From Streptomyces sp. 6-11-2 (GTDB lineage Bacteria > Actinomycetota > Actinomycetes > Streptomycetales > Streptomycetaceae): 64,000 bases of DNA. Each line of letters opens with the position of its first letter. The first letter of the stretch is position 1. Location of the stretch: assembly GCF_006540305.1 (NCBI RefSeq), contig NZ_BJOR01000001.1:1240001-1304000 (forward strand). Reading direction: 5' to 3'. Both the position numbers and the translations under genes were made by a program. The notes beneath the pieces were generated by a model. That model ran no database searches. It had not been told where the DNA came from and saw only the letters and a program-made list of their open reading frames with translations. Below are positions 21,454 through 34,111 of the stretch, one piece after another.

Positions 21454-22839
21454 TCAGCTCTGCGCGGTGATGCGCGCCAGCCGCTGTGCTTCGGCCCGCG
21501 TGGCGCGGGCGATGGCGTCCTCGTCGACGGTCAGCAACCGGCCGTCCTCGACGATCTGCCGCCCGTCCACGAAGGAGGCGGTGACCGGTGCCGCCGCGCC
21601 CAGGACCAGGGCGGTCACCGGGTCGGCGATCGAGGCGTGGGCCAGCGTGTCCATCCTCCACAGCACCAGGTCGGCCAGCTTGCCCGGCTCCAGCGAGCCG
21701 ATCTGGCCGGCCCGGCCGAGTACCCGGGCGCCGCCGTAGGTGCCCAGGCGCAGCGCCTGACGGGCGTTCAGGGCCGCCTCGCGGTGTGCGCCGAGGCGGT
21801 TGATCAGCAGGGCGTTGCGCAGTTCGGTGTGGAGTTCGCCGGACTCGTTGGAGGCGGTGCCGTCGACACCGAGGCCGACCGGGACGCCGGCCGCCAGCAT
21901 GTCGGGGACCCGGGCGATTCCGGCCGCGAGGCGGGCGTTGGAGGAGGGGCAGTGCGCCACACCGGTCTTCGTACGGGCGAAGGCGGCGATGTCGGAGTCG
22001 TTCATGTGGACGCAGTGCGCCATCCACACGTCCTCGCCCAGCCAGCCCGTGGACTCGAAGTAGTCGGTGGGGCCCTTGCCGAACAGCTCGTGGCAGAACT
22101 TCTCCTCCTCGACCGTCTCCGAGCCGTGGGTGTGCAGCCGTACGCCGAGGCGGCGGGCCAACTCCGCGGCCTGCTGGAGCAGTTCGGTGGAGACGGAGAA
22201 CGGGGAGCAGGGGGCGACGGCGATCTGTGTCATGGCGTCGAAGGAGGCGTCGTGGTGCCGCCGAACGGTCTCCTCGGTGGCGGCGAGCGCGCCCTGGAGC
22301 GTCTCCACGGCGAAGTCCGGCGGCAGCCCGCCGTCCTTCTCGCCGCGGTCCATCGAACCGCGGGCCAGGGTGAACCGCACGCCCGTCTCGCGGGCCGCCC
22401 GGATGATCGCGCCGGACAGGTCTCCGGAGCCGTGCGGGAAGACGTAGTGGTGGTCCATGGCGGTGGTGACGCCGCCGCGGGCCATCATCGCCAGCGACCC
22501 CTGGGCCGCCGCGTACACCATCTCCTCGTCGATGCGCGCCCAGGTCGGGTAGAGCGCGACGAGCCAGTCGAACAGGTTGTGGTCGGTGGCCAGGCCCCGG
22601 GTGATCCACTGGTAGAAGTGGTGGTGGGTGTTGACCAGACCGGGCGTGGCCAGATGGCCGCTCGCGTCGATGCGGCGCACCACGTCCTTCAGACCCTCGG
22701 GGGCCTTGCCCGCGCCGACCGACTCGATCCGGTTGCCGGCGAGGACGAGGTGTCCGGAGGCGTACTCGGTGTCGTCCGCGTCCACGGTCGCGATCGCGCA
22801 GTTCTCGATGACGATGCGCTGGGCTGCCGATGGTGCCAT
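21454..22839 (-). CDS. 8-oxoguanine deaminase-like amidohydrolase
   Basis: 461 residues; the ATG follows AAGGA. Cyclic deaminase metal site: 'GLVNTHHHFYQ' near 68 (HxH), 'RLHTHGSE' near 234, 'MAHCVHM' near 270 and the acidic 'GLGVDGTASNE' near 326. The sequence style ('VNTHHHFYQWITRGLATDHNLFDWL', 'MDHHYVFPHGSGD') is that of 8-oxoguanine deaminases, which convert 8-oxoguanine to urate + NH3. The context supports this: urate made here would feed the uricase encoded upstream in the same string. Other members of the subfamily act on triazines or guanine, so substrate assignment is by family and context. Confidence 0.82.
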   Translation of the reverse strand: MAPSAAQRIVIENCAIATVDADDTEYASGHLVLAGNRIESVGAGKAPEGLKDVVRRIDASGHLATPGLVNTHHHFYQWITRGLATDHNLFDWLVALYPTWARIDEEMVYAAAQGSLAMMARGGVTTAMDHHYVFPHGSGDLSGAIIRAARETGVRFTLARGSMDRGEKDGGLPPDFAVETLQGALAATEETVRRHHDASFDAMTQIAVAPCSPFSVSTELLQQAAELARRLGVRLHTHGSETVEEEKFCHELFGKGPTDYFESTGWLGEDVWMAHCVHMNDSDIAAFARTKTGVAHCPSSNARLAAGIARVPDMLAAGVPVGLGVDGTASNESGELHTELRNALLINRLGAHREAALNARQALRLGTYGGARVLGRAGQIGSLEPGKLADLVLWRMDTLAHASIADPVTALVLGAAAPVTASFVDGRQIVEDGRLLTVDEDAIARATRAEAQRLARITAQS

Positions 22840-22906: not shown

Positions 22907-24316
22907 CTAGGAGGATTTGAGTGCCGGAGCCGTGCTGCTCCGGGTGCCGAGGTGGTGGAAGAACAGGTTGAGCATGACGGCGACGATGGCGCCGGCGCTG
23001 ATTCCGGAGCCGAGGACGGTCTGCGCCCAGGCGGGGAACTGGGTGTAGAAGGTGGGCGCGGCCAGCGGGATGATGCCGGCGCCGAGGGCCACGGCGACCA
23101 GGATGATGTTGGAGCTGTCGTCCAGTCCGGCCTCGGACAGGGTGCGGATGCCGCTGACGGCGATCGAGCCGAAGAGCACGATGCCCGCGCCTCCGAGGAC
23201 CGGCATGGGCACCAGGGAGACGACCGCGCCGAGGACCGGGAAGGCGCCGAGGAGCAACAGGGCGGAGCCGGCGACGGCGACGACGTAGCGGCTGCGCACC
23301 CGGGTCAGCGAGACGACGCCCACGTTCTGGGCGAAGGCCGAGGTGGGGAAGCCGCCGAAGACGGGGCCGAGCAGGGTGGCGAGGCCGTCGGTGCGCAGGC
23401 CGCGGGTGATGGTCCGGGCGTCGGCGCGGCGGTCGCAGATCTCGCCGAGGGCGAGCATGCCGGCGCTGGACTCGGTCATCAGCACCAGCATCACGATGCA
23501 CAGCGACAGGATGGCCGCGGGCTGGAAGACGGGGGCGCCGAAGGCGAAGGGGGTGGGCAGCGCGGCGACCGGGGCGGACGCGAGGCCGCGGAAGTCGGCC
23601 ATGCCGAACGGAAGGGCGGCCAGGGTGCCGATGAGTAGTCCGAACAGCAGGGCGACCTGCTTGACGAAGCCCTTGCCGAAGCGCTGGATCAGCAGGATCA
23701 CCACGAGGGTGAACGCGGCGAGGGCGAGGTTCTTCATGGAGCCGAAGCCGGCGGCGGTCCGGTCCCCGCCCTGCGCCCAGCCGACGGGCACGGGCATCAG
23801 GGTGACCCCGATGAGGGTGATCACCACGCCGGTGACCAGCGGCGGGAAGAACTTCAGCAGCCGTCCGAAGAACGGGCCGACGGCCAGGCAGAAGGCGCCG
23901 GCGACCATCACCGCGCCGTAGATCGCCGGGAGTTGGTGTCCCTTGGCGTTGTTCTCGGCGATGGCGAGGATGGGGGCGATGCCGGCCGAGGAGGCGGCGT
24001 TCACGAACGGCAGGCGGTTGCCCACGAGTTGCCTGACGCCGATGGTCTGGAGGATCGTCGCGACGCCGGCGATCAGCAGGCTGGCGGCGATGAGCCGGGT
24101 GCGGCCCGCGATGTCGAGTCCGCAGGCCTGGCCGATGATGAGCGGAGGGGTGACAACGCCCGCGTACATGGCGGCGATGTGCTGGAGCGCGGCGGGGACG
24201 AGCCGCGAGGGGTGGAGCTTCTCGTCGACCGGGTGCACGGACGTGACGGCGTCCTCGGTGTGCACCGGCGGGGTGGAACACGGGCCTTCGACGGGCCCTT
24301 GAGCAGGCAGTGCCAT
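22907..24316 (-). CDS. NCS2 nucleobase:cation symporter (xanthine/urate type), copy 2
   Basis: 469 residues; the ATG follows GGAGGG. The NCS2 core is the same as in copy 1: 'LQHIAAMYAGVVTPPLI', 'PLVTGVVITLIGVTLMP', 'VLMTESSAGMLALGEI', 'GGFPTSAFAQNVGVVSLT'. It lies between the uricase and deaminase genes, 62 and 67 bases from each, and so is surely part of the operon. The two NCS2 copies are clearly diverged and may differ in affinity or in substrate (urate versus xanthine). Confidence 0.92.
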   Translation of the reverse strand: MALPAQGPVEGPCSTPPVHTEDAVTSVHPVDEKLHPSRLVPAALQHIAAMYAGVVTPPLIIGQACGLDIAGRTRLIAASLLIAGVATILQTIGVRQLVGNRLPFVNAASSAGIAPILAIAENNAKGHQLPAIYGAVMVAGAFCLAVGPFFGRLLKFFPPLVTGVVITLIGVTLMPVPVGWAQGGDRTAAGFGSMKNLALAAFTLVVILLIQRFGKGFVKQVALLFGLLIGTLAALPFGMADFRGLASAPVAALPTPFAFGAPVFQPAAILSLCIVMLVLMTESSAGMLALGEICDRRADARTITRGLRTDGLATLLGPVFGGFPTSAFAQNVGVVSLTRVRSRYVVAVAGSALLLLGAFPVLGAVVSLVPMPVLGGAGIVLFGSIAVSGIRTLSEAGLDDSSNIILVAVALGAGIIPLAAPTFYTQFPAWAQTVLGSGISAGAIVAVMLNLFFHHLGTRSSTAPALKSS

Positions 24317-24378: not shown

Positions 24379-25314
24379 TCAGAGGTTTGTCATGTCGACC
24401 GGGATGAGCTGCTCGGCGCCGTCCCGCAGGATGGTGGCCTCGATCAGGCCGTAGGGGCGGTCGGCGGCGTAGTAGACGGCGCCGTCCTTGGCCGCGTTGT
24501 CGATCCCGAAGGGCGACAGGTCCGAGCGGAAGTGGTGCTTGTTGGGCATCGAGAAGCGGATCTCGTCGACCTCGTCGCGGGAGTTCAGCACCCGCACACC
24601 CATCTCGAAGAGGGTCTGCTGGAGCGAGTACGAGTAGGTCTCGGCGAACGCCTGGAGCGCGTGCTTGCGCACCCCGTTGTACGAGCGCTCCCAGTCGGGG
24701 GCGTGCGAGTCGATGCCGTTCCAGTTGTGCCGCCACCAGGTGGAGACGGTGGTGGCGAGGATGCGGTCGTGGTCCTCCTGAAGGGAGGTGTACTTGTCCT
24801 TCAGGAAGCCGAAGAACTCGGAGTTGGTCGAGTTCAGGACGGTCAGGTCCTTGAACCCGGAGAGCACCTGGATTCCGTGGCCGTCGTAGGTGATCTGCGC
24901 GACGCGGGTCTCCTGGCCCTTGCGGACGAAGGAGTGGGCGATCTCGTCGGAGCCGACGAAGCGCGCGCCGGACTGCGCGGTCTCGATCCGCTCCCAGGCG
25001 TACTCCTCGATGCGGATGCGGGCCCGGTGGATGGGCTCGGTGTTGTCCACGAAGTGGCGGGCGAGCCTGACGCCGAAGTCTTCGGCGCTCTGGATCCCGT
25101 GCTCCTTGGCGAAGGCGAACACCGTGTTCTTGGTGGTGTCAGTCGGCAGGACGTTCGCGTTGGAGCCGCTGCGGTGGACCTCCTCCATGTCGCCGGAGAG
25201 GGCGACGGAGACGTTCAGGTCCTTGATGTGGTGCGTGTCGCCGGCACGCGTGATCTTGACGACTCGGTTCTCGGCCTTGCCGTACTGGTTCTGTCCCAGG
25301 ACGAAACGGGTCAT
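24379..25314 (-). CDS. uox: Urate oxidase (uricase)
   Basis: 311 residues. Cofactor-free uricase motifs: 'LGQNQYGKAENRVVKI' with the catalytic Lys near 13, 'NVLPTDTTKNTVF' with the catalytic Thr-Thr near 59, 'VLNSTNSEFFGF' with substrate-binding residues near 159-170, and 'MPNKHHF' near 260 with the catalytic-triad His. It oxidises urate with O2 to 5-hydroxyisourate and H2O2. It starts eight bases after the HIU hydrolase stop, so the product goes straight to the enzyme encoded next door. The H2O2 by-product gives a reason for the operator shared with catalase. Confidence 0.96.
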   Translation of the reverse strand: MTRFVLGQNQYGKAENRVVKITRAGDTHHIKDLNVSVALSGDMEEVHRSGSNANVLPTDTTKNTVFAFAKEHGIQSAEDFGVRLARHFVDNTEPIHRARIRIEEYAWERIETAQSGARFVGSDEIAHSFVRKGQETRVAQITYDGHGIQVLSGFKDLTVLNSTNSEFFGFLKDKYTSLQEDHDRILATTVSTWWRHNWNGIDSHAPDWERSYNGVRKHALQAFAETYSYSLQQTLFEMGVRVLNSRDEVDEIRFSMPNKHHFRSDLSPFGIDNAAKDGAVYYAADRPYGLIEATILRDGAEQLIPVDMTNL

Positions 25315-25322
25315 GGTGTCGG

Positions 25323-25724
25323 TCAGCTCCCTCGGTAAACGGAGTAGCCGAACGGGTTGAGCAGCAGCGGAACGTGGTAGTGCTCACCGGGCACCACCGC
25401 GAAGGTGATGGTGACCTCGGGGAAGAACACCGGCCGGCCGTTCTCGCTGTCCCGGAGCGCGGGGGCGTCCTGCTGGGCCGCGGCTTGCTTCTTGGCGAAG
25501 TACGTCTCGGTGTCGAACTCGAGCCGTACGTGGGTGGTGCCCTCCGGCGGCGCCGGAAGATCCTTGCACCGCCCGTCGGCGTCGGTCGAGGATCCGCCGA
25601 GCGCCTGCCAGTCCGCTTCCCGCCCGCAACGGGCCAGGATGTGGACGGCGACGCCCTCGGCGGGGCGGCCGGCGGAGGTGTCCAGGATGTGCGTGGACAC
25701 GGAGGCGGTGGTCTCGGTGCTCAT
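25323..25724 (-). CDS. uraH: 5-hydroxyisourate hydrolase (transthyretin-like)
   Basis: 133 residues. The family marks are 'VSTHILDTSAGRPAEGVAV' with the active-site His near residue 11, the central 'RLEFDTETYF', 'HYHVPLLLNPFGYSVYRGS' and the diagnostic C-terminal YRGS tetrapeptide. It hydrolyses 5-hydroxyisourate to OHCU in the cytoplasm. It lies between uraD (22-base gap) and uricase (8-base gap) in one operon. Confidence 0.96.
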   Translation of the reverse strand: MSTETTASVSTHILDTSAGRPAEGVAVHILARCGREADWQALGGSSTDADGRCKDLPAPPEGTTHVRLEFDTETYFAKKQAAAQQDAPALRDSENGRPVFFPEVTITFAVVPGEHYHVPLLLNPFGYSVYRGS

Positions 25725-25746: not shown

Positions 25747-26256
25747 TCAGGCGACTTCGAGCAGTCGGGCGAGCCGGATGCGGTTGATCTTCCCCAGTTC
25801 GCTGCGGACGATCTCGCGTTCCTGCTCCGGCGCGTTGCCGATCCGCTCCTTGAGCGCGTCGCGCATCTGCTCGCCGGTCCGGCCGGTGGCGCAGATGAGG
25901 AAGACGTGGCCGAACTTGTCCTGGTAGGCCAGGTTGAGGTCGAGCATCTCGGCCTTGAGTTCCTCGGAGACGCCGGCCATGCCGCGCTGTTCGCGGGCCG
26001 ATGCCGGGTCGCCGGGCTTGGGACGACCTATCGGCGGGTGGCCGGCCATCGCCTCCCCGAGGTCCGCTGGGGTCAGCTCCGCCATGGCGGCGTCGCTCGC
26101 GGCTTCGAGGTCTTCGGGGGTGCCGCAGGGGCGGGCCGCCAGCAGCCGCTCGGCCCAGGCCCTGCTGGCGCACGCCTCCAGAAGGGCGGCTCGGGCCGCG
26201 TCTTCGGGGAGGGCGTTGAATCGGGCGAGGCCCGGTGGCGTTGCGGTCGAAGTCAC
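25747..26256 (-). CDS. uraD: OHCU decarboxylase
   Basis: 169 residues; a GTG start after GGAGGC. The motifs 'FNALPEDAARAALLEACASRAWAERLLAARP', 'GHPPIG' (catalytic His near 73) and 'YQDKFGHVFLICATGRTGEQMRDAL' are those of 2-oxo-4-hydroxy-4-carboxy-5-ureidoimidazoline decarboxylase, which yields S-allantoin. First gene of the urate-degradation operon, directly behind the 26307-26347 promoter. Confidence 0.95.
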   Translation of the reverse strand: MTSTATPPGLARFNALPEDAARAALLEACASRAWAERLLAARPCGTPEDLEAASDAAMAELTPADLGEAMAGHPPIGRPKPGDPASAREQRGMAGVSEELKAEMLDLNLAYQDKFGHVFLICATGRTGEQMRDALKERIGNAPEQEREIVRSELGKINRIRLARLLEVA

Positions 26257-26306: not shown

Positions 26307-26347
26307 AGCTAACGCCCTGACGAACACTGCGTCAACAGTTTGTTGAA
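26307..26347 (-). promoter_or_regulatory. Promoter of the urate operon with TCAACA-N3-TGTTGA operator
   Basis: Read on the minus strand: TTGACG (26335-26330), a 17-base spacer, then TTAGCT (26312-26307). The palindrome TCAACA-AAC-TGTTGA overlaps the -35, and the 19 bases 26329-26347 are identical to 29044-29062 in front of catalase. An extra TGTTGAC half-site lies near 26272. The position suggests repression by blocking RNA polymerase. Confidence 0.7.
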
Positions 26348-26376
26348 AATTCCGGGACGCCGGGCCCGTGGGCGGC

Positions 26377-26739
26377 TCAGCCGCGCTTGTCGCGGTTGAG
26401 GTAGTTGTAGACGGTGAAGCGGCTGACGCCCAGCGCGCTCGCCACGGTCTCCACCCCGTGCCGGACGGAGAAGGCTCCGCGCGCCTCGAGCACCCGCACG
26501 ACCTCCTGCTTGGCCTTGCGGTCCAGGTCCGCGAGCGGCATGCCCTGCTTGCGCTCCATGGCGGCCAGGATGTGGTCCAGCGAGTCGGCGAGCTGCGGCA
26601 GGCGTACGGCGACGGCGACGGCACCCTCCCAGGAGAGCACGACATCGTCGGGGCCCGCCTCGTCCGGCGGGAGCATCCGGCCGCCGATCGCGTCGACCAG
26701 CGGCTTCAGGGCCGCGATGAAGGGCTCCTCCCCGATCAC
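26377..26739 (-). CDS. HTH regulator-like protein in the purine cluster
   Basis: 120 residues; the GTG overlaps the upstream stop (GTGA). The N-terminal region has a small α/β pattern ('FIAALKPLVDAIGGRM... VVLSWEGAVAVAVRLPQLADSLDHILA'). The C-terminus 'EVVRVLEARGAFSVRHGVETVASALGVSRFTVYNYLNRDKRG' is a helix-turn-helix of the DauR/YheO C-terminal kind. The natural inference is that it regulates the adjacent urate operon, perhaps through the TCAACA-N3-TGTTGA site. It is transcribed in the same direction, ending 121 bases before the uraD start. Confidence 0.75.
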   Translation of the reverse strand: MIGEEPFIAALKPLVDAIGGRMLPPDEAGPDDVVLSWEGAVAVAVRLPQLADSLDHILAAMERKQGMPLADLDRKAKQEVVRVLEARGAFSVRHGVETVASALGVSRFTVYNYLNRDKRG

Positions 26740-26993
26740 CTCCCGTCCTCCCCGATCACGGTGACCTGAAGGGAGATCCGGGTGGCGCCGGCCCGGAGGG
26801 TCCTGCGCAACAGGGCGTCCACGGCGTCCAGGACGGCGTCGGTACCCCCCTCGGCCGTGTTGCCGAACGGGCCGACGTCCACGGCGTCCAGTTCGGCGGC
26901 CTCGACGACCTCCCGCGCCACCACCGCGTGCGCGGGGGCCTCGTCCAGGTCGAAGGGTTCGGTCGTGAACTCCACTCTCAATCGCACGCGCAC
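26736..26993 (-). CDS. MTH1187/thiamine-binding-like small protein
   Basis: 85 residues from GTG. The pattern 'RLRVEFTTEPFDL... VDVGPFGNTAEGGTDAVLDAVDALLRRTLRAGATRISLQVTV' (β-α-β-β-α-β) resembles the MTH1187/YkoF family of ferredoxin-like proteins that bind thiamine-like ligands. It is coupled by a 4-base overlap to the HTH gene, so it may provide ligand sensing in trans. Family assignment is by eye only. Confidence 0.55.
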   Translation of the reverse strand: MRVRLRVEFTTEPFDLDEAPAHAVVAREVVEAAELDAVDVGPFGNTAEGGTDAVLDAVDALLRRTLRAGATRISLQVTVIGEDGR

Positions 26994-27061
26994 AACCTAA
27001 CGCGCGGGCCGCTTTCCGGGCAGTCCCGGCGACCGGGATCCACACGGGAGCCCGCACCCTC

Positions 27062-27127
27062 TTGACAAGCCACGACACCCCCCGGCAGTCTTCCATTACG
27101 CAGAAACCAAATTCCGCAATACGGAAT
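27062..27127 (+). promoter_or_regulatory. hyi promoter with ATTCCG-N5-CGGAAT operator
   Basis: TTGACA at 27062-27067, an 18-base spacer and CAGTCT at 27086-27091 form a plausible promoter. The perfect palindrome ATTCCGCAATACGGAAT at 27111-27127 lies about 20 bases downstream of the -10. A near-identical box sits in the same place relative to the gcl promoter. IclR-family allantoin regulators (AllR) are known to control gcl/hyi/glxR genes in Streptomyces; calling this an AllR box is inference. Confidence 0.65.
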
Positions 27128-27157
27128 ACGGCGACAACGGAAGGGAGCGCGGCCCTG

Positions 27158-27997
27158 ATGGGATTCGCAGACCAGCGCTTCAACGTCAACCTGTCGATCC
27201 TCTTCACGGAACTCCCGCTCCTGGAGCGGCCGGCGGCCGCCGCCGCGGCCGGCTTCACCGCGGTCGAACTGTGGTGGCCGTGGATCGACTCCCCCACCCC
27301 GGAGCGTTCCGAGACCGATGCCCTGAAGAAGGCGATCGAGGACGCGGGCGTACAGCTCACCGGCCTGAACTTCTACGCGGGCAGGCTCCCGGGCCCCGAC
27401 CGCGGCGCACTGTCCGTCCCCGGTGAGGAGGCGGAGAGGTTCCGCGCCAACATCGACGTGGCCGCGGACCTGGCCCGGTCCCTCGGCTGCACGGCCCTCA
27501 ACGCGCTGTACGGCAACCGGGTCGAGGGCGTGGACCCGGCCGAGCAGGACGCGCTCGCGCTGGACAACCTGGTCCTCGCGGCCCGGGCCGCCGACCGGAT
27601 CGGCGCGATCCTGCTGATCGAGGCGCTGAACAAGCCGGAGTCGCCGCTGTACCCGCTGGTGAGCGCGCCCGCCGCCGTCGAAGTGGTGGACAAGGTGAAC
27701 GCGGCGTCGGGCCTCGGCAACGCCAGGTTCCTGATGGACCTGTACCACCTGTCCATGAACGGCGAGGACCTGCCGTCGGTGATCGAGCGGTACGCCGCGC
27801 GGACCGGCCACGTCCAGATCGCCGACAACCCCGGCCGCGGCGCGCCCGGCACGGGCTCGCTCCCGCTGGAGGACCTCCTCGACCAGCTGGGGAAGGCCGG
27901 CTACGACGGCTGGGTCGGCCTGGAGTACAAGCCGGGCGACAGGCCGAGCGCCGAGGCCTTCGCGTGGCTGCCGGCCGAGGCCCGAGCGGCCCGCTGA
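27158..27997 (+). CDS. hyi: Hydroxypyruvate isomerase
   Basis: 279 residues; the ATG follows AAGGGAG by 11-12 bases. TIM-barrel isomerase with 'NLSILFTELPLLERPAAAAAAGFTAVELWWPW' at the start, 'LNALYGNRVEGVDP' near 112, the metal ligand Glu in 'LLIEALNKPES' near 150, 'FLMDLYHLSMNGEDL' near 190 and 'VGLEYKPGD' near 255. It interconverts hydroxypyruvate and tartronate semialdehyde. It stands first in a hyi-glxR operon that complements gcl, located 4 kb away. Confidence 0.92.
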   Translation: MGFADQRFNVNLSILFTELPLLERPAAAAAAGFTAVELWWPWIDSPTPERSETDALKKAIEDAGVQLTGLNFYAGRLPGPDRGALSVPGEEAERFRANIDVAADLARSLGCTALNALYGNRVEGVDPAEQDALALDNLVLAARAADRIGAILLIEALNKPESPLYPLVSAPAAVEVVDKVNAASGLGNARFLMDLYHLSMNGEDLPSVIERYAARTGHVQIADNPGRGAPGTGSLPLEDLLDQLGKAGYDGWVGLEYKPGDRPSAEAFAWLPAEARAAR

Positions 27998-28063
27998 CCA
28001 GCCCGGGCACCTTCCAGGGCCCCGACTCCCAGACGCAGCACAGAAGTGAGAGAGGCACCCGCA

Positions 28064-28957
28064 ATGACCACCACCCTTCCCAAGGTTGCCTGGATCGGCC
28101 TCGGCATCATGGGCTCCCCCATGTCCGAGAACCTGATCAAGGCGGGCTACCCCGTCACCGGCTACACGCTGGAGCAGGCGAAGCTGGACCGGCTGGCCGC
28201 CGCGGGCGGCACCACGGCGGGCTCGATCGCCGAGGCGGTCCGGGACGCCGACGTGATCGTCACGATGGTGCCCGCGTCGCCGCAGGTCGAGGCCATCGCC
28301 TACGGCCCGGACGGCATCCTGGAGAACGCGCGCTCCGGCGCGCTGCTGATCGACATGTCCTCGATCACCCCGCAGACCTCGATCGACCTGGCCGCCGCCG
28401 CCAAGAACAAGGGCATCCGGGTCCTGGACGCCCCCGTCTCCGGCGGTGAGGCGGGCGCCGTCGAGGCGGTGCTGTCGATCATGGTCGGCGGCGAGCAGGC
28501 CGACTTCGACACGGCCAAGCCGCTCTTCGAGTCGCTGGGCAAGACGATCGTGCTGTGCGGCCCGCACGGCTCCGGCCAGACCGTGAAGGCCGCCAACCAG
28601 CTGATCGTCGCCGTGAACATCCAGGCGTGCGCCGAGGCCGTGGTCTTCCTGGAGAAGTCGGGCGTGGACCTGAAGGCGGCGCTGGACGTCCTGGGCGGCG
28701 GCCTGGCCGGCTCGACCGTGCTGACGCGGAAGAAGGACAACTTCCTCCAGCGGGACTTCAAGCCGGGCTTCCGTATCGAACTGCACCACAAGGACATGGG
28801 CATCGTGACGGACGCGGCCCGCGCCGTCGGCGCCGCCCTGCCCGTCGGCGCGGTGGTCGCCCAGCTGGTGGCCTCCCTGCGCGCGCAGGGCGACGGCGGC
28901 CTGGACCACTCGGCCCTGCTGCGGGCCGTGGAGCGCCTGTCCGGCGCCCAGGTCTGA
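28064..28957 (+). CDS. glxR: 2-hydroxy-3-oxopropionate (tartronate semialdehyde) reductase
   Basis: 297 residues. The start at 'MTTTLPKVAWIGLGIMGSPMSENL' has an AGAGAGG site. β-hydroxyacid dehydrogenase motifs: Rossmann GLGIMG near 11, 'DAPVSGGEAGA' near 123 and the catalytic lysine in 'GSGQTVKAANQLI' near 173. It reduces tartronate semialdehyde to glycerate with NAD(P)H. It follows hyi by 66 bases, and a very strong hairpin ends the operon. Confidence 0.93.
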   Translation: MTTTLPKVAWIGLGIMGSPMSENLIKAGYPVTGYTLEQAKLDRLAAAGGTTAGSIAEAVRDADVIVTMVPASPQVEAIAYGPDGILENARSGALLIDMSSITPQTSIDLAAAAKNKGIRVLDAPVSGGEAGAVEAVLSIMVGGEQADFDTAKPLFESLGKTIVLCGPHGSGQTVKAANQLIVAVNIQACAEAVVFLEKSGVDLKAALDVLGGGLAGSTVLTRKKDNFLQRDFKPGFRIELHHKDMGIVTDAARAVGAALPVGAVVAQLVASLRAQGDGGLDHSALLRAVERLSGAQV

Positions 28958-28970
28958 CGGACCCCAGACC

Positions 28971-29030
28971 TCCGGACGGCGCCGCCGCCGACACCAGTCA
29001 TGTCGCGCCCAGGCGGCGGCGCCGTCCGGA
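28971..29030. terminator. Very strong hairpin terminator after glxR
   Basis: Perfect 19-base arms (28971-28989 and 29012-29030) with a 22-base loop. It separates the hyi-glxR operon from the catalase promoter, which begins 14 bases later. Confidence 0.85.
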
Positions 29031-29043
29031 TCCACCCCCCTTG

Positions 29044-29126
29044 TTCAACAAACTGTTGACGCGCCGATCACACCGATCCTAGGCTCCACGCAAGCGGAAA
29101 CTCCACGAAGCGGAAGTACGTTTCCG
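29044..29126 (+). promoter_or_regulatory. Catalase promoter with TCAACA-N3-TGTTGA operator and CGGAA repeats
   Basis: TTGACG (29056-29061), an 18-base spacer and TAGGCT (29080-29085). The 19 bases 29044-29062 are identical to the urate-operon promoter element at 26329-26347. Downstream, a second inverted repeat CGGAA-N6-TTCCG (29111-29126) and two further CGGAA copies lie in the leader. Confidence 0.7.
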
Positions 29127-29152: not shown

Positions 29153-30616
29153 ATGTCGAAGCGCGTCCTCACGACCGAGTCCGGCGCCCCGGTCGCCGAC
29201 AACCAGAACTCCGCCTCCGCCGGCATCGGCGGCCCCCTCCTCCTCCAGGACCAGCACCTGCTGGAGAAGCTGGCGCGCTTCAACCGCGAGCGCATCCCGG
29301 AGCGCGTGGTGCACGCCCGCGGCTCCGGCGCCCACGGCCACTTCGAGGTGACCGACGACGTCACAGGTTGGACTCACGCCGATTTCCTGAGCGCGGTCGG
29401 CAAGCGCACCGAGGTGTTCGCGCGCTTCTCCACGGTGGCGGACTCCCTCGGCGGCGCGGACGCGGTGCGCGACCCGCGCGGCTTCGCGGTGAAGTTCTAC
29501 ACCGAGGAGGGCAACTACGACCTCGTCGGCAACAACACGCCGGTGTTCTTCGTCAAGGACCCGGTGAAGTTCCCCGACTTCATCCACTCGCAGAAGCGCG
29601 ACCCGTTCACGGGCCGTCAGGAGCCGGACAGCGTCTGGGACTTCTGGGCGCACTCCCCCGAGGCCACGCACCAGGTGACCTGGCTGATGGGCGACCGCGG
29701 CATCCCTGCCTCGTACCGCCACATGAACGGCTACGGCTCGCACACCTACCAGTGGACGAACGCCGACGGCGAGGCCTTCTTCGTCAAGTACCACTTCAAG
29801 ACCGACCAGGGCATCCGCTGCCTGTCCACCGAGCAGGCCCAGGAGATCGCCGGCACGGACCCGGCCTCCCACCAGACGGACCTGCTCCAGGCGATCGAGC
29901 GCGGGGTGCGCCCGTCCTGGACGCTGTACGTCCAGATCATGCCGGCGGCCGAGGCGGCCGACTACCGCTTCAACCCCTTCGACGTGACCAAGGTCTGGCC
30001 GCACAGGGACCACCCGCTGCGACGGGTGGGCCGACTGGTCCTGGACCGCAACCCGGACAACGTGTTCGCCGAGGTCGAGCAGGCCGCGTTCTCCCCGAAC
30101 AACTTCGTACCGGGCATCGGCCCGTCGCCGGACAAGATGCTCCAGGGGCGGCTGTTCGCCTACGCCGACGCCCACCGCTACCGCCTGGGCGTCAACCACA
30201 CCCAGCTCGCGGTGAACGCGCCGAAGGCCGTGCCCGGCGGCGCGGACAACTACGGCCGTGACGGCCTCATGGCGTCCAACTCCCAGGGCCGGTACGCCAA
30301 GAACTACGAGCCGAACTCCTACGACGGCCCCGTCGAGACCGGCCGTCCGCTGTCGGCCCCGCTGGCGGTGACGGGCCACACGGGCACCCACGCGGCGCCC
30401 CCGCACACCAAGGACGACGACTTCTTCCAGGCCGGCGAGCTGTACCGGCTGATGTCCGAGGAGGAGAAGCGGCGTCTGGTCGCGAACATCGCCGGCGGCC
30501 TCTCGCAGGTCTCCCGCGACGACGTGATCAAGAAGAACCTCGCGCACTTCCACGCCGCCGACCCGGACTACGGCAGGCGCGTGGAGGAGGCGGTACGCGC
30601 CCTGCGCGAGGACTGA
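29153..30616 (+). CDS. katA: Monofunctional haem catalase
   Basis: 487 residues. Catalase signature: the distal His H54 in 'RVVHARG', N127 in 'GNNTPVFF', and the proximal haem-ligand Tyr near 337 in '[14 protein letters not shown]'. The length fits small-subunit (clade 3) catalases. It breaks down H2O2. Its promoter element is shared with the uricase operon, which suggests it handles peroxide from urate oxidation rather than, or as well as, general oxidative stress. The gene stands alone. Confidence 0.95.
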
Positions 30617-34042: not shown

Positions 34043-34111
34043 ATTCCGTATAGCGGAAACTACTTTCTACTATCTGGAAGCAATGTAAGTGCGGCCCGCA
34101 AAGGGCGTCAA
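34043..34111 (-). promoter_or_regulatory. gcl promoter with TTTCCG-N5-CGGAAT operator
   Basis: On the minus strand TTGACG (34111-34106), a 17-base spacer and TTACAT (34088-34083). The box TTTCCGCTATACGGAAT (34059-34043) sits about 25 bases downstream of the -10, inside the start of the transcript. It matches the hyi box at 15 of 17 bases and at nearly the same offset. This supports a common repressor, probably AllR-like. Confidence 0.7.

Follow-up and report, generated by a model that had tools for sequence, protein, structure and literature searches.

A palindromic site shared by the uricase operon and catalase of Streptomyces, the probable operator of an HTH_22 protein with a UPF0045-like partner

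Introduction

HucR and PucR are urate-related regulators from elsewhere in bacteria that exert local control over uricase genes. Both belong to protein families different from that of the candidate regulator described here, which is encoded in a stretch of 64,000 nucleotides of Streptomyces sp. 6-11-2 (contig NZ_BJOR01000001.1, positions 1,240,001 to 1,304,000; the whole stretch is called the window below). The window contains the uricase operon uraD-uraH-uox and a catalase gene, each preceded by a copy of the same palindrome, designated X. Taken as a whole, the data are probably best explained by X being the operator of an HTH_22 protein (26377-26739) with a UPF0045-like partner, through which uricase and catalase would be controlled together.

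The YheO/DauR-type regulators (PF13309) share with the window protein the C-terminal HTH_22 domain, and some members whose recognition helix is similar are preceded by X-like promoter sites. In YheO-type proteins HTH_22 follows a PAS_6 domain (for instance in L362), whereas the window protein of 120 amino acids (aa) gave no PAS_6 match in Pfam at E ≤ 1; neither was a MarR or PucR family found among its matches at this threshold. Solved proteins of the UPF0045/MTH1187/DUF77 type stand alone, whereas in the present case the partner is a DNA-binding domain, on a separate protein or in a fusion. AllR of S. coelicolor reportedly controls the allantoin genes, to go by the title of a 2015 AEM (Applied and Environmental Microbiology) study cited in PMC12772271. 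It has its pathway in common with X, and in the catalase leader its likely sites occur alongside X, but both its palindrome and its protein family differ from X and HTH_22.

The locus is anchored in S. coelicolor by SCO6209-6211, which are called hpxQ, hpxT, and hpxO in PMC4991794. According to the same paper, uraD-uraH-uox is lower in the wild type and not in the mutant, and the SenR gel shifts given there do not include SCO6209. The G+C-rich SenR site predicted there in front of SCO6209 is unlike X, and SenR was rejected as a reader of X. In PMC11555846, other studies are cited for the induction of uricase by uric acid. None of six spellings of the X site was found in the searched literature; searches by gene number, subject, and protein family, in which subscription journals are thinly covered, gave no HTH_22 regulator of uricase and no X operator among the matches listed.

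Site X in the window and in the genome

A first-pass annotation of the window had reported that a 19-mer, TTCAACAAACTGTTGACGC, with a TCAACA-N3-TGTTGA core occurs exactly twice, in front of the uricase operon and of catalase. An exact search returned both copies at the coordinates and on the strands given (26329-26347, minus strand; 29044-29062, plus strand). No third match was present in the window at ≤3 mismatches, and none of 100 dinucleotide shuffles of the window had as many. The core likewise proved to be correct, being that of X, a conserved 17-bp palindrome of the form TTCAACA-N3-TGTTGA(C/A), which reads TTCAACAAACTGTTGAC at both places. Over the whole 8.7 Mb genome, ≤3 mismatches again allowed only these two matches, with none for the reversed pattern. 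A looser form, TTCAA-N7-TTGA(A/C), matched at three places in the genome, in front of uraD, catalase, and malate synthase, the last site lying ~18 kb before the start of the window; the site is thus not spread over many unrelated promoters. Searching the genome at two mismatches was too loose (133 matches versus 34 in the reversed control), and the four one-mismatch places inspected are apparently intragenic.

X overlaps a TTGACG -35 hexamer with a -10 hexamer 17-18 bases on at both genes, as had been claimed, and this arrangement is conserved in relatives. At 80 related uraD sites the distance between the hexamers is 17 bp in 76 and 18 bp in three, with no match in one; at catalase a -10 lies at 17 or 18 bp in all 53 sites, only those ending in CG being taken.

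Conservation at uricase and catalase

The related loci were the best 80 of at least 565 confirmed uricase loci and comprise 1.56 Mb in all. The exact core is present upstream of uraD in 80/80 of them and upstream of catalase in 55 of the 57 that have a nearly full catalase start with its upstream region. It occurs 139 times in the 1.56 Mb: 138 sites are at uraD or catalase, and the remaining one precedes a truncated catalase start. Both sites are thus kept between species, and the shared control of the two genes through one operator, as first proposed, is supported. An X-like core (≤2 mismatches) also lies upstream of malate synthase in all seven of the 80 loci that include the full gene and its upstream region. 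The uricase itself is 93-98% identical to that of 27 named loci (92-98% in the best segments), 26 from Streptomyces and one from Kitasatospora.

The strict form of X, TTCAACANNNTGTTGACG, was found in 98 of 104 genomes of the genus and in none of 15 from other families of the order (reversed control, 0 throughout). Twelve genomes from those other families were inspected; uricase is present in eight, HTH_22 matches are at most weak, and strict X is in none. Within the genus, two scans left nine genomes (three and six) without the searched pattern. Four of these (G089, G098, G136, G043) lack uricase and have weak HTH_22 matches or none. In three (G093, G166, G010) uricase is accompanied by HTH_22, which is split in two in G010, and by a form of X with one base changed. 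G050 is an 82% complete genome in which the contig stops within uraD, and G080 (L277) has uricase, a decayed uraD, and a remnant of the small gene without HTH_22 or X. In the latter genome uraH and uricase still match over their full length. The best catalase matches in nine genomes without strict X are 53-71% identical, so that close orthologs of this catalase seem to be absent.

The proposed regulator pair

The helix-turn-helix protein proposed at 26377 stood up in part. An HTH_22 gene is indeed located there (PF13309, 73.4 bits versus a cut-off of 29.6), and the protein database contains a 120-aa protein (P0121) that is 99% identical to its product as read here. There is no single long open reading frame, however, but two genes, overlapping by GTGA: 26377-26739 and 26736-26993. 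A 327-aa frame (26377-27360) and a 206-aa stretch were rejected, as their front half is in the wrong frame. The start of the small gene was taken as the GTG at 26993, 26987 being possible too. Its product scores 23.2 bits against PF01910, slightly below the cut-off of 24.9. From its place next to SCO6209, and from this only, SCO6208 seems to be the S. coelicolor counterpart of the HTH_22 gene; it is listed as a putative transposase in PMC3897704.

Homologs in which the two proteins are fused score 41.2 and 40.8 bits against PF01910, over the cut-off. Against the fusion of G335, the small protein of the window aligns with the N-terminal part (40% over 77 aa, E 5e-6), and its HTH_22 neighbour with the C-terminal part (60% over 67 aa). 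A profile of 46 sequences matches 1yqh at 8e-7 and 1lxn at 4e-6. The AlphaFold2 model of the G335 fusion (mean predicted local distance difference test score 84, predicted template modelling score 0.47) has two confident domains joined by a loose linker. When it was compared with known structures by Foldseek, UPF0045 chains (DUF77/MTH1187/MJ1052/TM0486) ranked at the top for the N-terminal domain; a second aligner returned many ferredoxin-like folds at tied Z and gave no information on the family, and the HTH part was hardly probed by the comparison. The UPF0045-like small protein is likely the sensor part of the regulator.

Co-inheritance of X and the HTH_22 gene

HTH_22 orthologs were detected in 139 of 150 genomes of the family. 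Twenty HTH_22 loci from 15 other genera of the family all have the exact core between HTH_22 and uraD (20/20). In five of the 20 loci the small gene is directly preceded by a further core site with at most one mismatch (in eight at ≤2 mismatches), which is the pattern that autoregulation would give; in loci with this upstream site hyi is the next gene, except in L315, where the contig ends.

A similar relation was observed over the class. Among 345 genomes, with up to 13 candidates scored in each, 33 have an HTH_22 ortholog at E ≤ 1e-17. Strict X is present in 31 of the 345, all inside these 33, and the two remaining ortholog genomes (G093 and G573) have one-base variants of it. Two other families account for three of the 33. 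The small domain and HTH_22 form one protein in G335 and G573, with both domains over their Pfam cut-offs, and X lies between this fused regulator and uox. Of the fusion homologs, 114 of 120 listed (the best 120 of 1025) carry both Pfam domains. On a Tsukamurella plasmid the regulator pair and uraD-uraH-pucL face away from each other across a common promoter that contains X. In G176 and G177 the pair still neighbours hyi and catalase, with uox 20 and 80 kb away, and exact X sites are retained both at uraD and in front of catalase.

Recognition helix

The sample of YheO-type relatives consisted of 18 hand-chosen loci, nine from genome searches and nine from plasmid hits, with starts set by script; L253 and L391, in which the helix pattern was not found, were dropped, leaving 16. 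The helix of the window protein reads SRFTVYNYLN, and a close helix, [ST]R[FY]T[VI]YNYL, is present in five of the 16. Four of these five have an X-like site in their own promoter, equalled in at most 2 of 300 shuffles, and none of the 11 relatives with other helices has one (for the best of them, 44 of 300 shuffles were as good). The association of helix and site has p = 0.003 at face value. X as a trait of the whole HTH_22 family was rejected on the 0/11 among relatives with other helices. Together, co-inheritance, fusion, divergent promoter, and helix comparison lend in silico backing to the earlier proposal of the HTH gene at 26377 as the regulator, and strongly suggest that operator and regulator belong together.

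One relative in the sample, at L362:5770, is a PAS_6+HTH_22 (YheO-type) gene divergent from an amino-acid permease gene, with a perfect TTCAACACAATGTTGAA in the promoter; an alanine-racemase/D-serine-dehydratase-type gene follows the permease gene.

Further targets of X

Seventy-two exact sites were classified (30 loci from one genome scan, 40 hand-picked among the matches listed in two scans, and two in L096), and because of the hand-picking the counts indicate kinds of target and not their frequencies. Besides 23 sites before uraD and six before catalase, 13 lie before ureA, at 58-64 bp, and 17 between a cyclophilin-like gene and cydA (cytochrome bd). Four are at DUF6986, two between allantoinase-like and IclR genes, and two between isochorismatase-type and DJ-1/AraC-type genes; the remaining five were not placed. 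Target domains were named by domain search, the allantoinase-specific domain being below its cut-off. The urease, allantoinase/IclR, and malate synthase targets in other species are more in keeping with purine-nitrogen catabolism than with a response to peroxide alone. X probably marks a set of co-regulated purine-catabolism genes, governed by a one-component regulator that is split in two and is probably a repressor.

In the 17 loci in which the cyclophilin-like gene is divergent from cydA (L196, L199, L204, L208, L210, L212, L213, L215, L218, L219, and seven others), X adjoins the start of the former. X is at the start of the DUF6986 (aldolase-like) gene in L155, L206, L214, and L223, and DUF6986 is also found near the fused regulator in L358 and L359. 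In one genome (L221:2002) a long regulator-like gene, which by eye resembles PucR/GAF, is preceded by X at 80 bp, with a WrbA-like gene, also recognized by eye, nearby.

Proposed mechanism

From site conservation, promoter overlap, co-inheritance, and domain fusion, all of them computed, we infer that the HTH_22 protein binds X. It would act together with the UPF0045-like protein, likely its ligand-sensing domain. Sitting on X in front of uraD-uraH-uox and catalase, the regulator would cover the -35 and block RNA polymerase, until a metabolite of purine degradation frees it from the site. That it represses and does not activate is a guess, as is the identity of the ligand, for which urate is the simplest choice. 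Upon release, uricase would be made together with the catalase that removes its H2O2, and the degenerate site would bring in malate synthase, which takes up the glyoxylate from allantoin breakdown.

Alternative readers and points against

A different family of palindromes, TTCCG-N5-CGGAA or CGGAA-N6-TTCCG, is present at the same locus before hyi and gcl and in the catalase leader. Outside the window it is found in front of an allantoinase-like gene and between an IclR gene and a permease (L054:8079, L054:10551). This family looks like an AllR (IclR-family) regulon: the motifs of E. coli IclR and AllR in PMC8222616 resemble these palindromes, which are for this reason taken as AllR sites, and catalase would then be under both systems. 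Some 24 kb ahead of the window, an IclR-family gene (L054:10735-11538), probably AllR, and an allantoin-type permease gene (L054:9004-10497) are divergently arranged, and the promoter of the former contains CGGAAGTAAACTTCCG and not X. It could be supposed that AllR itself reads X and controls uricase and catalase along with the allantoin genes. The presence of this IclR-family gene, the occurrence of X between allR-like and allantoinase-like genes in some species (L150, L200), and the reputed role of AllR in S. coelicolor would agree with this. However, the other palindromes, which are nearer to the E. coli motifs, are the ones found at hyi, gcl, the allantoinase-like gene, and the IclR/permease pair, and the loose search of the genome returned X at none of these four. 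AllR is therefore an unlikely reader of X and was set aside, on motif comparison only.

Slightly less probable still is that a different, unlinked transcription factor common to these actinobacteria reads X, with the HTH_22 pair a mere neighbour. Linkage of the HTH_22 gene to X sites is no proof of reading, and X is also found at genes without a clear tie to purines, such as the cyclophilin-like gene beside cydA. Against this, X tracks HTH_22 over three families and several gene orders, including the divergent Tsukamurella promoter and uox beside the fused regulator, and X-like sites occur at unrelated genes where an HTH_22 relative has a similar helix. It could also be argued that X is no operator at all but a strong shared promoter form with an extended -35, as its TTGACG serves as the -35 at both genes. 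This is very improbable: the conserved part is a 17-bp palindrome extending upstream of the -35, X adjoins the start codon of the cyclophilin-like gene, and at ureA it takes another position, 7-8 bp before a TA(G/C)(G/T)GT hexamer in 11/13 loci. If this hexamer is a -10, X falls inside the ureA promoter, and repression is favoured.

Several observations weigh against the HTH_22 pair as reader and repressor at X. Some activators also bind at positions that overlap the -35. Two catalase genes (L066, L069) are without X, and the reversed control of the loose genome search gave four matches versus three real ones, so that the places and not the number of these matches count. Thirty of the 33 class-level orthologs come from one genus, and co-inheritance is mostly by descent; with up to 13 candidates scored per genome, a distant ortholog may have been missed. 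HTH_22 and uraD are usually neighbours, and X could travel along passively. G080 has lost HTH_22 and the adjacent site and its uraD has decayed, so it offers no independent test. The fifth relative with a close helix, that of R. jostii, lacks a good promoter site (22 of 300 shuffles did as well), the helix classes were in part defined with the sites already in view, and there are near-duplicates among the loci, including some of the 11 with other helices.

Significance

The X operator, its HTH_22 regulator with UPF0045-like partner, and the list of targets would give a concrete account of the control of purine-nitrogen use in Streptomyces, and an oxidase and its clean-up catalase under one switch would be a tidy logic. 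If this is true, a conserved protein, apparently listed as a transposase in S. coelicolor, would obtain a function, part of the HTH_22 family a DNA motif, and UPF0045 domains a suggested role as small-molecule sensors in transcription. A wider generalization, to which we give somewhat less than even chances, is that actinobacteria possess an undescribed class of regulator in which UPF0045 ('thiamine-binding') senses urate or a breakdown product and HTH_22 reads TTCAACA-N3-TGTTGAA. It would consist of two proteins in Streptomyces and its family and of a fusion in other families, and would control uric-acid breakdown with the disposal of peroxide, urea, and glyoxylate.

Genes and sites of the locus

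The genes claimed behind the two sites, uraD-uraH-uox after the one and catalase after the other, were recovered by Pfam. The names hyi, tartronate semialdehyde reductase, and gcl were assigned by gene order and relatives.

Table 1 Features in and around the uricase-catalase locus (window coordinates)
Feature	Position	Strand	Basis
Amidohydrolase	21454-22839	-	Pfam
Xanthine/uracil-type permease	22907-24316	-	Pfam
uox, uricase	24379..25314	-	Pfam
uraH, hydroxyisourate hydrolase (HIUase/transthyretin)	25323..25724	-	Pfam
uraD, OHCU decarboxylase	25747..26256	-	Pfam
-10 TTAGCT of uraD promoter, 17 bp from -35	26307..26312	-	17-bp spacing in 76/80 relatives
-35 TTGACG of uraD promoter, overlaps X	26330..26335	-	sequence
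Putative operator X before uraD-uraH-uox, TTCAACAAACTGTTGAC	26331..26347	-	exact core in 80/80 related loci
HTH_22 protein, 120 aa, proposed reader of X	26377..26739	-	Pfam PF13309
Small UPF0045/PF01910-like protein, 85 aa, proposed sensor partner	26736..26993	-	PF01910, just below cut-off
TTCCG-N5-CGGAA / CGGAA-N6-TTCCG family, before hyi	27112-27126		sequence
hyi-like TIM-barrel protein	27158-27997	+	Pfam; name from gene order and relatives
NAD-binding reductase, tartronate semialdehyde reductase-like	28064-28957	+	Pfam; name from gene order and relatives
Putative operator X before catalase, TTCAACAAACTGTTGAC	29044..29060	+	exact core in 55/57 related loci
-35 TTGACG of catalase promoter, overlaps X	29056..29061	+	sequence
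-10 TAGGCT of catalase promoter, 18 bp from -35	29080..29085	+	17/18 bp in 53/53 relatives' sites
Palindrome CGGAAGTACGTTTCCG in catalase leader, unlike X, possibly of AllR type	29111..29126	+	sequence
Catalase	29153..30616	+	Pfam
TTCCG-N5-CGGAA / CGGAA-N6-TTCCG family, before gcl	34044-34058		sequence

A 27-kb circular record of S. angustmyceticus named "plasmid p3" (L385; NZ_CP104320.1) likewise spans catalase through 8-oxoguanine deaminase and includes the two X sites; in it the thiamine-pyrophosphate enzyme is annotated as two separate short genes.

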